Source: Allonocardiopsis opalescens (GTDB taxonomy: Bacteria > Actinomycetota > Actinomycetes > Streptosporangiales > Streptosporangiaceae). Taken from it: a DNA stretch of 64,000 nucleotides. The translations under genes were made by a program, and so were the position numbers. This document shows, piece by piece, positions 35,560 to 53,340 of this stretch. The stretch lies in NCBI RefSeq assembly GCF_003002095.1, contig NZ_PVZC01000001.1, positions 744,001-808,000 on the forward strand, in the 5' to 3' direction. The notes under the pieces were generated by a model. That model saw only the letters and a program-made list of their open reading frames with translations. It was not told the origin of the DNA and made no database searches. The first letter of the stretch is position 1. Every line of letters starts with the position of its first letter.

Positions 35560-35748
35560 TGTGGATAAGCTCCCTAGAGAATTCGGTTCGCCCTCGCCGT
35601 TTTCCACAGCGCGGCGCCGGCCGGCCCGACGGTGCCGCCCGCGGACATCGCCTGCGGGCGGGCGATGTCCGCGGCGGTGTCCGCATATGTCGCCCAGGCA
35701 AATTATTCCGGCGTGGCCTGGACCGGACCGCCGCCCCCCTGTGGAAAA
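35560..35748. other. Cluster of three consensus DnaA boxes
   Basis: TGTGGATAA (35560-35568), TTTTCCACA (35600-35608) and TGTGGAAAA (35740-35748) all match TTWTNCACA on one strand or the other. They sit in a 267-bp divergent intergenic region with an AT-rich patch AAATTATT (35700-35707) and a perfect 14-bp palindrome. There is no dnaA or dnaN here, so a chromosomal oriC is unlikely. A DnaA-titrating or DnaA-responsive control site is possible. Confidence 0.5.
35639..35674. repeat. Perfect 14-bp inverted repeat
   Basis: CCGCGGACATCGCC (35639-35652), an 8-nt loop and the exact complement (35661-35674). It lies between DnaA boxes, 100 bp before the metallopeptidase start. It could be an operator or an mRNA hairpin. 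Confidence 0.7.
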
Positions 35749-46125: not shown

Positions 46126-46498
46126 TCAACGTCATAGGGACGAGGTGCGCACCCCCAGAACCAAGAACAACGGCCGACGGCCCACCGGATTCAGTTCCCC
46201 CACACCGCCAACGCGAGAGCCCACTGGTATGGCGACGCGGCCCACAACCCCAGAACCACGAACATCAGTCGACCCCCCACCAGGTCCCGGCGCACCCCAC
46301 ACCACCGAGATGAAAACCCAAGGCCACCAGGACCGAAAAGCACCGCCCTCGCGAACACAAGCGAACCACCAAGCGGGTCGAGCCCCCACCTCGCCGAGGC
46401 GAGCCCGCAAAGGTGCCAGCGGAAAATGCAGCCTCAAGGCCGTGAACACCGCGTGCTGCTGCCCCCGGTCCGGTTTCCCCCCATCGCGGGGGGAGACT
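46126..46498 (+). repeat. Degenerate copies of the ~98-bp repeat
   Basis: Units beginning near 46126, 46208 and 46306 keep recognisable pieces (TCAACG start, GAACAACGGCCGACGGCCC, CCACCGGATTC, TTCCCCCACA) of the conserved repeat to the right. They carry many substitutions, and the Gs of the hairpin are eroded. No gene is evident in 46003-46498. Confidence 0.6.
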
Positions 46499-46988
46499 TC
46501 AACGGTGTCCAGGGGGTGAGGGGCGTAGCCCCACAGTGGTGAACGACGGCCGGTCTCCCACCGGGTTCCGCTTCACCCACGCCGCGGGGGTGCGGCCTCA
46601 ACGGTGTGCGGGGTGAAGGGCGCAGCCCCACAGTCGCGAACGACGGCCGGTCACCCACCAGGTTCTGGTTCTCCCCACATCGCGGGGTGGGTCCTCAGCG
46701 GTGTCCGGGGGTGAGGGGCGCAGCCCCACAGCCGTGAACGACGGCCGGTCACCCACCAGGTTCTGGTTCTCCCCACATCGCGGGGTGGGTCCTCAGCGGT
46801 GTCCGGGGGTGAGGGGCGCAGCCCCACTGTCGTGCACGACGGTCGGTCACCCACTCGATTCCGGTTCCCCCACATCGCGGGGTGCGGCCTCAACGATGTG
46901 CGGGGGCGAGGGGCGCAGCCCCACAGTCGTGAACAACGGCCGATCCCCCACCGGGTTCTGGTTTCCCTCACATCGTCGGGGTGCGGCC
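46499..46988 (+). repeat. Tandem array of five ~98-bp repeats
   Basis: Units start at 46499, 46598, 46695, 46793 and 46890 (spacing 97-99 bp), with a partial sixth at 46989. Each contains a GTGAGGGGCGCAGCCCCAC hairpin, an ACGACGGCCGGTCACCCACC block and a CCCCACATCGCGGGGTG block. The unit length is not a multiple of three and all frames are interrupted, so it is non-coding. Confidence 0.88.
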
Positions 46989-47080
46989 TCGACGTTGTGG
47001 GGGTGGGGGGTCCAGGGGGGCGCCAGCCCCCCTGGTGTGGGGGGCTCCGGGGGGCCATGCCCCCCGGGCAGACACGCGAA

Positions 47081-47127
47081 GGGCCCGGCGGTGAAGCAAG
47101 CAGAAGGCTTGCGAACACACCGGGCCC
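47081..47127 (-). terminator. tRNA terminator hairpin (left copy)
   Basis: Mirror copy of the structure at 49219-49265: an outer GGGCCCGG/CCGGGCCC stem with an inner GCAAGC-CTTCT-GCTTGC hairpin, 9 bp downstream of the tRNA 3' end on the minus strand. Confidence 0.65.
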
Positions 47128-47135
47128 AGGGCACG

Positions 47136-47209
47136 TAGCGGGGGCAGGATTTGAACCTGCGACCTCTGGGTTATGAGCCCAGCGAGCTACCGAACTGCTC
47201 CACCCCGCG
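47136..47209 (-). tRNA. Initiator tRNA-fMet (CAT), copy 1
   Basis: 74 nt. The acceptor stem is CGCGGGG/CCCCGCT with a C1-U72 mismatch, an initiator hallmark. The anticodon stem is CTGGG/CCCAG with three G:C pairs next to the loop CTCATAA (anticodon CAT). The T-arm is GCAGG-TTCAAAT-CCTGC. CCA is not encoded. It is identical to the copy at 49137-49210, in opposite orientation. Confidence 0.96.
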
Positions 47210-47324
47210 TCGGGATGCCTTCAGTGTAGGGGGTGGGGGGCGCGGGTCCAAATCGTTTCACCGCAACCGCGCCCGCTGTGCGGTCGGGGCGGTGCCGTCG
47301 TCCGGTGGCGGGGGCGCGGGTCGG

Positions 47325-48840: not shown

Positions 48841-49136
48841 CAGCGGCTCCCTCGGTGTCGAAGCGGACGCGGCACGGACAGGCAAGAGCTCATAGCCCAC
48901 CGCGACCCCGCCGACCCGCCACCGGCACCCGCCGACAGCGCCAACCGACCCGAACCCCGGAACCCGCCCGCACCGCCCACCGCACTTGTGGAGCGGCGGA
49001 CGGCACCGATCCTCGCCCCCCGCTGTTTCCCGACCGGGTCTCCGCGATCACCACCAGGTAAAACCCGCCCCGCCCCGCACCGCCCCGAACCGATTTGCGG
49101 TGACCATCCGCAGGCCATAGAGTTACGGCATCCCGA

Positions 49137-49210
49137 CGCGGGGTGGAGCAGTTCGGTAGCTCGCTGGGCTCATAACCCAGAGGTCGCAGGTTCAAATCCT
49201 GCCCCCGCTA
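49137..49210 (+). tRNA. Initiator tRNA-fMet (CAT), copy 2
   Basis: 74 nt, identical to the copy at 47136-47209: C1-U72 mismatch, three G:C pairs in the anticodon stem, loop CTCATAA, no encoded CCA. The upstream sequence up to 10 bp is shared with copy 1; beyond that the promoters differ, so the two genes may be expressed differently. Confidence 0.96.
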
Positions 49211-49218
49211 CGTGCCCT

Positions 49219-49265
49219 GGGCCCGGTGTGTTCGCAAGCCTTCTGCTTGCTTCACCGCCGGGCCC
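49219..49265 (+). terminator. tRNA terminator hairpin (right copy)
   Basis: GGGCCCGG (49219-49226) pairs with CCGGGCCC (49258-49265). Inside, GCAAGC (49234-49239) pairs with GCTTGC (49245-49250). It lies 8 bp after the tRNA. Further G/C hairpins follow (e.g. GGGGGGC-ATG-GCCCCCC near 49281-49297). Confidence 0.65.
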
Positions 49266-49360
49266 TTCGCGTGTCTGCCCGGGGGGCATGGCCCCCCGGA
49301 GCCCCCCACACCAGGGGGGCTGGCGCCCCCCTGGACCCCCCCACCCCCACAACGTCGAGG

Positions 49361-49760
49361 ACTCACTCCGACGATGTGGGGGGAAACAGAATCGGGTCGG
49401 GACATCGGTCGTCGTTCACGGCTGTGGGGCTGCGCCCCTCGCCCCCGGGACATCGTTGAGGTCTCACCTCGGCGATGTGGGGTGAAGCGGAACCTGGTGG
49501 GTGACCGGTTGTCGTTCGCGGCTGTGGGGCTACGCCCCTCACCCCCGGACACCGTCGAGGACCCACCTCGGCGATGTGGGGTGAAGCGGAACCTGGTGGG
49601 GGATCGGCCGTCGTTCACGACTGTGGGGCGCTCCTCACCCCGCACACCGTTGAGGCCGCACCTTGACGGTGTGGGGGAATCTGGGGGCCGGAACCCGGTG
49701 GGAGGCCAGCCGTTGTCCAGGGCTGTGGGGTGCGCCCTCGCCTCCGACGGGGTTGAGAGC
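49361..49760 (-). repeat. Tandem array of ~100-bp repeats, inverted relative to the left array
   Basis: Four units end near 49461, 49560, 49655 and 49758 and carry the same blocks as 46499-46988 on the opposite strand (GTGGGGCTGCGCCCCTCACC hairpin, GTCGTTCACGGC, GATGTGGGGTGAAGC). The last two are shortened or degraded. It is non-coding, and no gene is seen in 49211-49793. Confidence 0.85.
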
Positions 49761-51174: not shown

Positions 51175-51348
51175 CCCCCGCGGCGGTCCCCCTCCCGCCC
51201 GGGGGGACGACCCCAACACCATTTTCGCGCGCATCGCGGTCCGACCGCGAGAGCCGGGCGGGGGCTGTGGACAACACCGCCCACGCCGCCAGCAAACTGT
51301 GGACAACCCGGCCGGAACGGCACGCCCGTGCACCAGATGGTGTAGGCG
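51175..51348. repeat. DnaA-box inverted-repeat arm (left)
   Basis: 174 bp, highly similar to the reverse complement of 53167-53340. It contains two TGTGGACAA boxes (51266-51274 and 51298-51306), the reverse complement of the actinobacterial DnaA box TTGTCCACA, 32 bp apart. It also has a GTCCCCC...GGGGGAC hairpin. Confidence 0.88.
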
Positions 51349-51370
51349 GAGATCGCGAGTAGAGCGGGGG

Positions 51371-52174
51371 TCAGGCCAGGCGGAGTTTCGGGTCGCCGCC
51401 GAGTCGGGCGAGGACCTCGGCGTGCAGGTGGCCGTTGGTGCAGACGATGCTGCCGCCGTCGACGCTGTTCTGGCCGTTGAGGTCGGTGTAGGTGCCGCCG
51501 GCCTCCTCCACGAGGACGGTCAGCGCGGCCATGTCCCACAGGGACAGTTCCGGCTCGGCCGACACGTCGACGGCGCCCTCGGCGACCATGACGTGTGACC
51601 AGAAGTCGCCGTACGCACGGGTGCGCCAGACCGAGCGCGTCAGGTCGACGAACTGGTCGAAGCGGCCCGCGGCCTCCCATTCGGCCAGGTCGGAGAAGGA
51701 CAGGGAGGCGTCGCTGATCTTGGAGACGCCCGACACCTGGCAGCGCGACGCCTTGGCCAGGCTCCGGCCCGACCAGGCGCCGCCGTTGCGGGCGGCCCAC
51801 CAGCGGCGGTTCAGGGCGGGGGCCGAGATGAGACCGACGACGACTTCGGGGCCGTCCATCAGGGCGATCAGCGTCGCCCAGACGGGGACGCCGCGCACGT
51901 AGTTGCGGGTGCCGTCGATCGGGTCGAGCACCCAGCAGCGGGTGGCGCGGCCGGTGCGGCCGTACTCCTCGCCGATGACGGCGTCGCGGGGCCGGGCGCG
52001 CTTGAGGATGCCGCGCAGCACCTCCTCCACGGCGCGGTCGGCGTCGGTGACCGGCGTCAGGTCCGGTTTGGTGTCGATGGTCAGATCGAGGGCTCGGAAC
52101 CGGCGAGTGGAGACATCGTCGGCCGCGTCCGCGAGGACGTGGGCGAGACGCAGGTCATCGTCAAAGGCCGCCAT
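51371..52174 (-). CDS. hisN: Inositol-monophosphatase family, likely histidinol-phosphatase HisN
   Basis: 267 residues from ATG 52174. Metal motifs are VIGEEYG, WVLDPIDGTRNYVRG and SLWDMAALTVLVEEAGG. The sequence matches actinobacterial HisN (mycobacterial Rv3137-like) better than generic IMPases because of the short loop after GTRNY. It dephosphorylates histidinol phosphate in histidine synthesis. It is divergent from a HAD phosphatase and bounded by the DnaA-box repeat arms; no other his gene except hisS is in the window. Confidence 0.85.
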   Translation of the reverse strand: MAAFDDDLRLAHVLADAADDVSTRRFRALDLTIDTKPDLTPVTDADRAVEEVLRGILKRARPRDAVIGEEYGRTGRATRCWVLDPIDGTRNYVRGVPVWATLIALMDGPEVVVGLISAPALNRRWWAARNGGAWSGRSLAKASRCQVSGVSKISDASLSFSDLAEWEAAGRFDQFVDLTRSVWRTRAYGDFWSHVMVAEGAVDVSAEPELSLWDMAALTVLVEEAGGTYTDLNGQNSVDGGSIVCTNGHLHAEVLARLGGDPKLRLA

Positions 52175-52283
52175 GCCGCGAAACGCTACCGTGCTTGGCG
52201 CTTCGCCAGTAGATCCACCACCCCGGAGAGGCGTGTCCGCACCGCAACGGCGGACCGCGCGCCGTCGCTGCGACACTGGGGCC

Positions 52284-52979
52284 ATGAGCGAACAACTGCG
52301 CTATCAGGAGATCGCGCCGCCGGCCTTCCTGTTCGACCTCGACGGCACGCTGATCGACAGCGTCTACCAGCACGTGATCGCGTGGCGGACCGCGCTCGCG
52401 GAGATGGGGATCGACCTGTCCGTCTGGCGGATCCACCGCAGGATCGGCATGAGCGGCGGCCTGTTCGTGGCGGCGCTGCTCCGCGAGACGGGGGTGCGAC
52501 TGAGCACCGAGCAGCTCGAGGCGCTGCAACGCGCCCACGCGCGCGAGTACAACGCCCAGATCGACTCGGTGCGCGCGCTGCCCGGCGCCCCCGAACTGCT
52601 GCGCAGCCTGACCGAGCGCGGCATCCCGTGGGCCATCGCGACCAGCGGCCGCGCCGAGACGGCCAGGTCGGCGCTCGGCACGCTCGGACTGCCCGAGGAC
52701 ACCCCCATGGTCACCCGCGACCTGGTCCGCTACGCCAAGCCCGACCCCGACCTGTTCCTGGCCGCCGCCTCCCTGCTCGGCGTCGACCCGGGCAACGCGA
52801 TGGTGGTGGGCGACAGCGTCTGGGACCTGCTCGCCGCCCGCCGCGCGGGCGCCCTCGGCGTCGGACTGCTCTCCGGCGGCTACGGCCGCGAGGAACTGGA
52901 GCGCACCGGCGCCTTCCGCGTCTACACGGACCCCGCCGACCTGCTCCAGCGCCTGGACGAGCTGGGCGTCCGGCAGTAG
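52284..52979 (+). CDS. HAD family phosphatase (phosphoglycolate-phosphatase-like)
   Basis: 231 residues from ATG 52284. Motif I is FLFDLDGTLIDSVYQHV, motif II AIATSGR, motif III KPDPDLFLAAA, motif IV VVGDSVWDLLAARRAG. A C1 helical cap (residues about 25-85) makes it a beta-phosphoglucomutase/Gph-type enzyme. The substrate is unknown. It is divergent from hisN with a 109-bp intergenic region. Confidence 0.88.
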   Translation: MSEQLRYQEIAPPAFLFDLDGTLIDSVYQHVIAWRTALAEMGIDLSVWRIHRRIGMSGGLFVAALLRETGVRLSTEQLEALQRAHAREYNAQIDSVRALPGAPELLRSLTERGIPWAIATSGRAETARSALGTLGLPEDTPMVTRDLVRYAKPDPDLFLAAASLLGVDPGNAMVVGDSVWDLLAARRAGALGVGLLSGGYGREELERTGAFRVYTDPADLLQRLDELGVRQ

Positions 52980-53166
52980 CGGCCGGAGTGCGGGGATGGT
53001 GCGGCGGGCCGGGCGCGCAGGCTCGTGCCGCGCGGTCCGCCGACTTCCGCCGCCCGCTGCGAGCGGTGGTCCGTCCGACCCGTCGCGCCGTGACCAGGCA
53101 CGGGCCGGCACTGCTTCCTCCGGCCGCGTGAACGGCCCCAGTGCCGGGACTGGCTCTACTCGTGGT

Positions 53167-53340
53167 CGCCTACACCATCTGGTGCGCCGGGTGCTCCGGT
53201 GCGCGGGGTTGTCCACAGTTTGTCGGTGGCGTGGGCGGTGTTGTCCACAGCCCCCGCCCGGCTCTCGCGGTCAGACCGCGATGCGCGCGAAAATGGTGTT
53301 GGGGTCGTCCCCCCGGGCGGGAGGGGGACCGCCGCGGGGG
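53167..53340. repeat. DnaA-box inverted-repeat arm (right)
   Basis: 174 bp. TTGTCCACA is at 53209-53217 and 53241-53249, again 32 bp apart. Flanking ACACCATCTGGTGC and the CGCGAAAATGGTGTTGGG block are shared with the left arm. The segment between 53188 and 53208 differs from the left arm. 52980-53166 and 53341-53568 show no gene. Confidence 0.88.

Follow-up and report, generated by a model that had tools for sequence, protein, structure and literature searches.

A dispersed, high-copy family of elements carrying paired DnaA-type boxes in Allonocardiopsis opalescens

The window, by which we mean the whole stretch of 64,000 nucleotides analysed here (window coordinates are those of contig C1 minus 744000), contains hisN, the gene for histidinol-phosphatase (51371..52174, minus strand; TIGR02067, 289 bits, over the cut-off). 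Beside it lies a gene for a HAD-type phosphatase (52284..52979, plus strand), to which HAD families match under their curated cut-offs, the best being TIGR02009 at 95 bits. Both genes are enclosed by two arms. The left arm, taken over its whole extent of similarity, spans 51175..51365 on the plus strand (self-BLAST and repeat search), and the right arm 53153..53340 on the minus strand (self-BLAST). An earlier sequence-only reading of this DNA had described two 174-bp arms in opposite orientation, and this description is confirmed: the arms align as an inverted pair (51175-51365 against 53340-53153) at 91% over 192 columns, and a genome search with the right arm returned a 174-nt match between them at 93%. 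Their inner 138 nt (51175-51312 and 53203-53340) are 96% complementary and a further 24 nt 92%.

Each arm contains two exact copies of TTGTCCACA, with a start-to-start distance of 32 nt in either arm, as had been reported. These DnaA-type boxes lie on the minus strand in the left arm (box 1 at 51266..51274, box 2 at 51298..51306) and on the plus strand in the right arm (box 1 at 53241..53249, box 2 at 53209..53217). The GTCCCCC hairpin common to the arms is also real and forms part of a GC-rich hairpin block, here termed block I, delimited from the sequence and from an alignment (A1, below) and consisting of the GC hairpin and a CCA..T.TC.CGCG stretch (51187..51229, plus strand, on the left; 53286..53328, minus strand, on the right). 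The similarity between the arms extends about 12 nt ahead of block I and about 55 nt past box 2. The segment between the boxes, whose divergence had been used to argue for selection on the boxes, is not strongly diverged: the arms differ at 3 of the 41 nt of the box-to-box stretch, boxes counted in. The earlier count of seven consensus boxes in the window was likewise too high: five have the canonical sequence, and the sites near 35.6 kb are one TTATCCACA and two TTTTCCACA. One-mismatch box matches number seven in the window, a marginal excess (mean 3.4, with 5 of 100 shuffles reaching 7). At 35560-35608, TTATCCACA and TTTTCCACA stand face to face with their starts 40 bp apart; there is no match there to the model R2 described below, so this site is not a copy of the family. 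Elsewhere in the window, 46459-47219 and 49127-49746 pair as the arms of a large inverted repeat (87.5% over 618 nt). A tRNA-Met(CAT) gene lies in each of these arms, and after it comes a tandem series of units about 98 bp long, in 5.5 and 3.5 copies.

The search suggested in the sequence-only reading, for further copies of the arm in the genome (6,970,775 bases in 22 contigs), gave at least 33 matches with the right arm as query when 40 of 160 candidates were scored. Turned hairpin-first, these matches share one layout, with the GC hairpin block followed by a gap of loose sequence, CTGTGGACAA, about 20 nt, and CTGTGGACGA. We aligned 29 of 30 copies, leaving out L021, into A1, whose rows were picked by similarity to the arm and not by their boxes, and built from it a sequence-only model, R1. 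This model finds at least 128 matches at E up to 1, at least 116 at 20.8 bits or more and at least 92 at 38 bits or more, all of them lower bounds, as 150 of 17,963 candidates were scored. Twelve of the 128, with E above 0.003, were set aside, and the 24 weaker copies (20.8-38 bits) are counted apart from the 92 strong ones, most of which are full length. The copies in the window, read hairpin block first and boxes last, are 51187..51309 on the plus strand (R1 match C1:795187-795309, 79.5 bits; R2 match 51187-51274) and 53207..53328 on the minus strand (R1 match C1:797207-797328, 80.1 bits; R2 match 53241-53328). The arms are thus two members of an interspersed repeat family, closely related to each other, and not a structure special to hisN and the HAD gene. 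The possibility named at the outset, that they might prove to be a common unrelated repeat, is half right: the repeat is common, but the boxes and the hairpin block are its conserved parts. The conserved unit consists of block I, a gap of near-fixed length and DnaA-type boxes, usually two here and one in other genera.

Near-identical pairs occur in this genome, namely the two arms themselves and C1:985090/1089783, as do recent direct or head-to-head duplicates. On contig C3, which carries oriC, variant copies form clusters (L221, at C3:16336-28277, L226, L228 and L230), some arranged in tandem, others head to head with one large palindrome in common; in several of the copies the second box is inverted. 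By eye, we saw no conserved ends or terminal repeats beyond the unit in the copies of this genome, and palindromy over most of the element is absent, with only the hairpin block self-complementary and no excess folding elsewhere. An origin from phages or plasmids was considered and rejected: IMG/VR holds no exact match to the core, phages gave no match to the element, and plasmids gave three short matches from Streptomyces, each covering 28-31% of the query.

The same gene arrangement was found in relatives. A HAD gene stands beside hisN in 11 of 80 hisN loci, and the ten of these 11 that were printed and looked at show the order aroA-rsgA-HAD-hisN, with HAD opposite to hisN, in the same order and orientation as here. 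R1 finds no match at E up to 0.1 in the 80 loci (901,401 bases). Because the orientation of the segment is the usual one in these ten relatives and their hisN loci are free of R1 matches, the arms are extra DNA on both flanks, and the idea that the segment inverts was not borne out.

Within the family, conservation is block-wise. At box 1, all 29 rows of A1 agree in the columns T.TGGA. Counting as a box any exact TGTGGA, or any site with no more than one mismatch to CTGTGGAC, we recognise a pair in 81 of the 92 strong copies; its spacing is 29-33 nt in 80 of the 81 (mode 30; the remaining one at 11). Box 1 reads TGTGGA in 80 of 81, a constancy of the box core that is partly circular given the box rule. 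The other 11 strong copies, several with TCTGGA, have no second box by this rule and stand outside the box counts. From the end of the G-run to box 1 there are 57-59 nt in 81 of 89 copies (89 of the 92 entered this measurement and the folding test described below), while the gap sequence itself is loose, its mean majority base reaching 0.54 compared with about 0.40 expected from base composition alone. A loose gap of near-fixed length is, we infer, the trace expected of a protein complex on DNA and not of a merely decaying repeat.

In this genome the strict direct pair TGTGGAYR-N19-26-TGTGGAYR was counted 85 times, and in a reversed-pattern control 0 times; the next highest count among 341 genomes of the taxonomic family is 17, and a single genus whose genomes are large (g4) supplies most of the higher counts. 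For single TTRTCCACAG sites the count is 92 in this genome (control 3), and none of 59 relatives exceeds 55. The earlier reading is supported in part, namely in the box type, in the spacing kept across the family and in the strict pairs. Of nine strict-box pairs read from outside our list of copies, seven are 28-31 nt apart (three direct, four inverted) and two are 17 and 21 apart; no block I was seen at those seven. At four loci (L324, L325, L333 and L339) a second motif, GGCGGCAACGTGACCGCCAC with its complement, lies near pairs of DnaA-type boxes, and in two genomes of genus g34 tandem arrays of 15-bp units carry one TGTGGAYA box per unit (G090:C2:445285-445382 and G091:C29:48896-48993). The origin beside dnaA (C3:174.7-175.1 kb) is made of the same box type as the element, and PMC4285127 lists TTGTCCACA as the DnaA box of high affinity in Streptomyces coelicolor and Mycobacterium tuberculosis. 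The boxes of both arms, exact copies of TTGTCCACA, therefore match the DnaA box of the lineage, and their earlier designation as DnaA boxes holds at the level of sequence.

The strong copies are placed non-randomly with respect to genes. Called by a simple composition script, whose single starts may be wrong, the gene on the box side points away from the copy, which thus lies upstream of its start, in 74 of 92 cases (p 1.6e-9 against one half), and the gene on the hairpin side ends towards the copy in 70 of 92. All strong copies are intergenic except one of the 92 that lies inside a called ORF. A TTGAC stands within 60 nt after box 2 in 28 of the 85 copies counted (of the 92), compared with 1 of 85 on the other strand, at an offset from box 2 of 15 nt in 17 of the 28 and of 22-25 nt in nine. 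The weaker copies show the opposite arrangement, with the box-side gene ending towards the boxes in 19 of 24; thirteen of these 24 lie on the oriC contig C3, and many have another hairpin. The downstream genes are mixed and include urease alpha, NuoM, a Mur ligase, IlvD, the ribonucleotide reductase small chain, a RecQ-type helicase, regulators and transporters. Two copies stand within otherwise tight gene series: one lies in a 320-bp gap between nuoL and nuoM, in a series whose neighbouring nuo genes are separated by 2 bp or overlap by 4; the other lies between ureB and ureC, which are 184 bp apart. Both look like insertions into compact operons. One strong copy (L219, C2:575769) is located at the start of the ribonucleotide reductase small-chain gene; in E. 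coli, nrdAB is under DnaA regulation according to the excerpted text of PMC8203912.

In other genera the element is found in a version with one box. The 23-base core of block I, with up to two mismatches, is present in 59 of the 341 genomes; this genome has 26 occurrences, the others mostly one or two. Its control gave single matches in a few genomes, and some two-mismatch matches outside the genera of the element may be due to chance. Among 32 distinct occurrences of the core in fetched loci, 21 lie in frame in dnaX, five in an AtuA-family gene and one in a lipoyl-type E2 gene, identities that were confirmed for one gene of each kind, and the remaining five include copies between gnd and recF as well as one from the own genome. 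In the own genome, a copy adjoins the AtuA orthologue instead of lying inside it. Each of the 31 copies from other genomes has one box, and from the start of the block to the end of that box there are 88 nt in 28 of them and 87 or 89 nt in three. The coding copies encode the peptide QPPPAQGGDPTSSVQ...SVDN and retain rare codons: in the 27 of the 32 occurrences on which codons were counted, ACT is kept in 26 of 27 and AGT in 18 of 18 synonymous cases, although the same genes use ACT for 3% of Thr and AGT for 4% of Ser codons; the dnaX copies are largely orthologues, so these counts are not independent. Since the rare codons are kept and the codons past the block drift, selection is seen acting on the nucleotides, with the caveat that many of the copies are orthologues. 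A shorter pattern, scanned across the order, lacked selectivity, matching 89 of 150 genomes with up to two mismatches, and was not used. An R1 scan of 59 relatives gave two weak matches. One, L093, is by eye without block I; the other, L094, lies in another family, is plausible as a single-box copy and is matched again by R2 at 1.1e-5.

The family has multiplied in at least two lineages. A second model, R2, whose alignment A2 takes 45 of 86 candidate sequences, was run on 20 chosen genomes with 150 candidates scored in each. Nineteen have a match and one (G021) has none, and copy number is very uneven across genera, with at least 76 copies in G064, at least 41 in G065, at least 10 in G265 and 1-4 in the 16 others. 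G064 and G065 belong to one other genus, and from them we read 30 of the 76 and 10 of the 41 copies. The cores of G064 are 92% identical on average (28 ungapped cores, with a minimum of 0.38 given by one out of register), and among its 30 copies an end resembling CCTGTCTCGAAGTC (up to 3 mismatches of 14) is present on the left in 21, on the right in 17 and on both sides in 13; the same end probe hit one left and no right end in the ten G065 copies. Most of the 30 are preceded by arrays of units of about 15 bp that vary by locus. These arrays (L383-L412) are homogeneous within a locus, different between loci and abut the hairpin block, and seem to be a minisatellite growing out of the element. 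Unlike the strong copies here, 26 of the 30 have a box-side gene that ends towards the boxes. The G064 copies look like a recent MITE-like burst carrying the module, for which BrickBuilt, the minisatellite-bearing MITE of Porphyromonas gingivalis, as outlined in the excerpted text of PMC4596501, offers a likeness.

Taken together, these observations lead us to favour, with roughly even confidence, the explanation that the family is a module of DnaA boxes, spread in the manner of a repeat and preserved through selection on its motifs, with binding by DnaA predicted from the boxes. DnaA would bind the boxes, two molecules sitting together on a pair about three helical turns apart. The module would have spread as a repeat, in at least one relative by a MITE-like route, and its copies would be kept because they titrate the DnaA they bind or let it act on genes close by; titration would be the joint effect of the copies, and individual ones may adjust promoters in their vicinity. 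DnaA is described as acting at known promoters in the excerpted text of PMC8203912. Counting against a DnaA module are the gene-end placement of the weaker copies and of those in G064, which misfits a promoter role, the uneven copy number across genera, the relatives with a single box and no pair, the strong copies in which the second box is missing, the mixed character of the downstream genes, and the copies within compact operons, a position typical of insertions.

The main rival, and a serious one, is a purely selfish interspersed repeat of the MITE, REP or RPE-like kind, which we consider a real possibility while judging it short of probable. Its hairpin block and boxes would be recognised by a mobilising machinery, or DnaA would aid its replication, the host would gain nothing, and placement would reflect where insertions are tolerated. 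The uneven and independent amplification, the homogeneous G064 cores with their terminal-repeat-like ends, the interruption of compact operons, the gene-end placement in G064, and the near-identical pairs and recent duplicates of this genome all speak for it. It fits less well with a genome whose copies, by eye, lack conserved ends or terminal repeats beyond the unit, with old, diverged copies that retain blocks and distances as the gap drifts, with the rare codons retained in dnaX, and with the strong orientation towards the downstream gene seen here. A DnaA module and a selfish repeat are compatible in nature, as one and the same mobile element bringing in DnaA sites can fit both descriptions.

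It is unlikely that the boxes are sites of another protein of similar recognition sequence, such as a transcription factor whose regulon the family marks. The upstream position of most strong copies and the TTGAC at fixed distances past box 2 would suit such a factor; the box sequence, however, is that of the oriC boxes beside dnaA and of the published actinobacterial DnaA box, and the downstream genes lack a theme. A Pfam search of 70 of the 71 distinct downstream genes (E 1e-5 and 1e-10; L230:7616-8143 left out) revealed no functional theme, and a regulon defined by gene content was rejected on these grounds. A riboswitch, attenuator or terminator transcribed with the genes is very improbable. 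The conserved hairpin block and the co-orientation with the downstream gene would be expected of an RNA element, but the A1 consensus has six pairs with almost no covariation, the boxes are inverted in some weaker copies, and folding is no better than in shuffles or flanks (mean z -0.22 for the gap and -0.14 for the whole element, the flanking controls giving -0.30 and -0.33, with 28 rows in the upstream one). At gathering level Rfam reports two tRNAs only in the window, and for the arm it gives one chance-level Guanidine-II match below the cut-off (15.3 bits against 32); RNA structure was therefore rejected. Inspection by eye had suggested that the gap contains a second covarying hairpin; folding against shuffles gave it no support. 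A local invertible segment bounded by box-bearing arms is the least credible reading of all, for although the arms are inverted and 96% identical in their inner part, the genome holds many further copies elsewhere and gene order in the relatives looked at, with its identical orientation, speaks against an inversion of hisN and HAD.

In its broader form, the favoured explanation of a selected DnaA-box module would describe a dispersed titration and response network, which we put forward tentatively and with considerable doubt: a mobile module of paired DnaA sites, with about 100 copies mostly before genes, might tie much of the genome to the level or nucleotide state of DnaA, a one-box version being held by selection in the clamp-loader gene dnaX of related genera. 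A genome with about 100 standard two-box modules, beside scanned relatives most of which have a few, lets one ask, as a natural experiment, if additional DnaA sites alter the timing of initiation or gene expression. It is also uncommon to see a repeat within coding DNA whose nucleotides themselves are visibly retained. That chromosomal boxes titrate DnaA is a long-standing model, discussed mostly in terms of scattered boxes. Among the titles and abstracts that our searches of open PMC papers brought up, none reports a module of this kind, with DnaA-type boxes in pairs, a high copy number and a related version in dnaX.

Among known systems, the DnaA-box clusters datA, DARS1 and DARS2 of E. coli are alike in having several DnaA-type boxes at fixed spacing outside oriC; the boxes here have the actinobacterial sequence. 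DnaA-binding loci outside oriC number one or few per genome in the excerpted account of PMC4585315, as do datA and DARS, whereas about 100 standardised copies with a hairpin block are found here. MITEs, BrickBuilt among them (excerpt of PMC4596501), are similarly short, non-coding, intergenic and multi-copy, and many of the G064 copies read have terminal-repeat-like ends and a tandem array beside the core. The element of this genome differs from MITEs in its conserved box geometry, and by eye no terminal repeats were seen in it; BrickBuilt differs from it in having 23-nt units, with no DnaA boxes mentioned in the abstract of that paper. The palindromic elements of Rickettsia, as presented in the excerpted text of PMC10969869, are comparable in being about 150 bp long, dispersed and located in frame inside unrelated genes, as seen here in dnaX, atuA and E2 of other genera. 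The present element departs from them in being intergenic in its own genome, in carrying DnaA-type boxes, and in coding copies that keep their nucleotides at synonymous sites.

REP- and ERIC-type repeats are high-copy, intergenic and found between operon genes. The family described here resembles them in all of these respects, and differs in its paired DnaA-type boxes at fixed spacing and in its strong co-orientation with the downstream gene.
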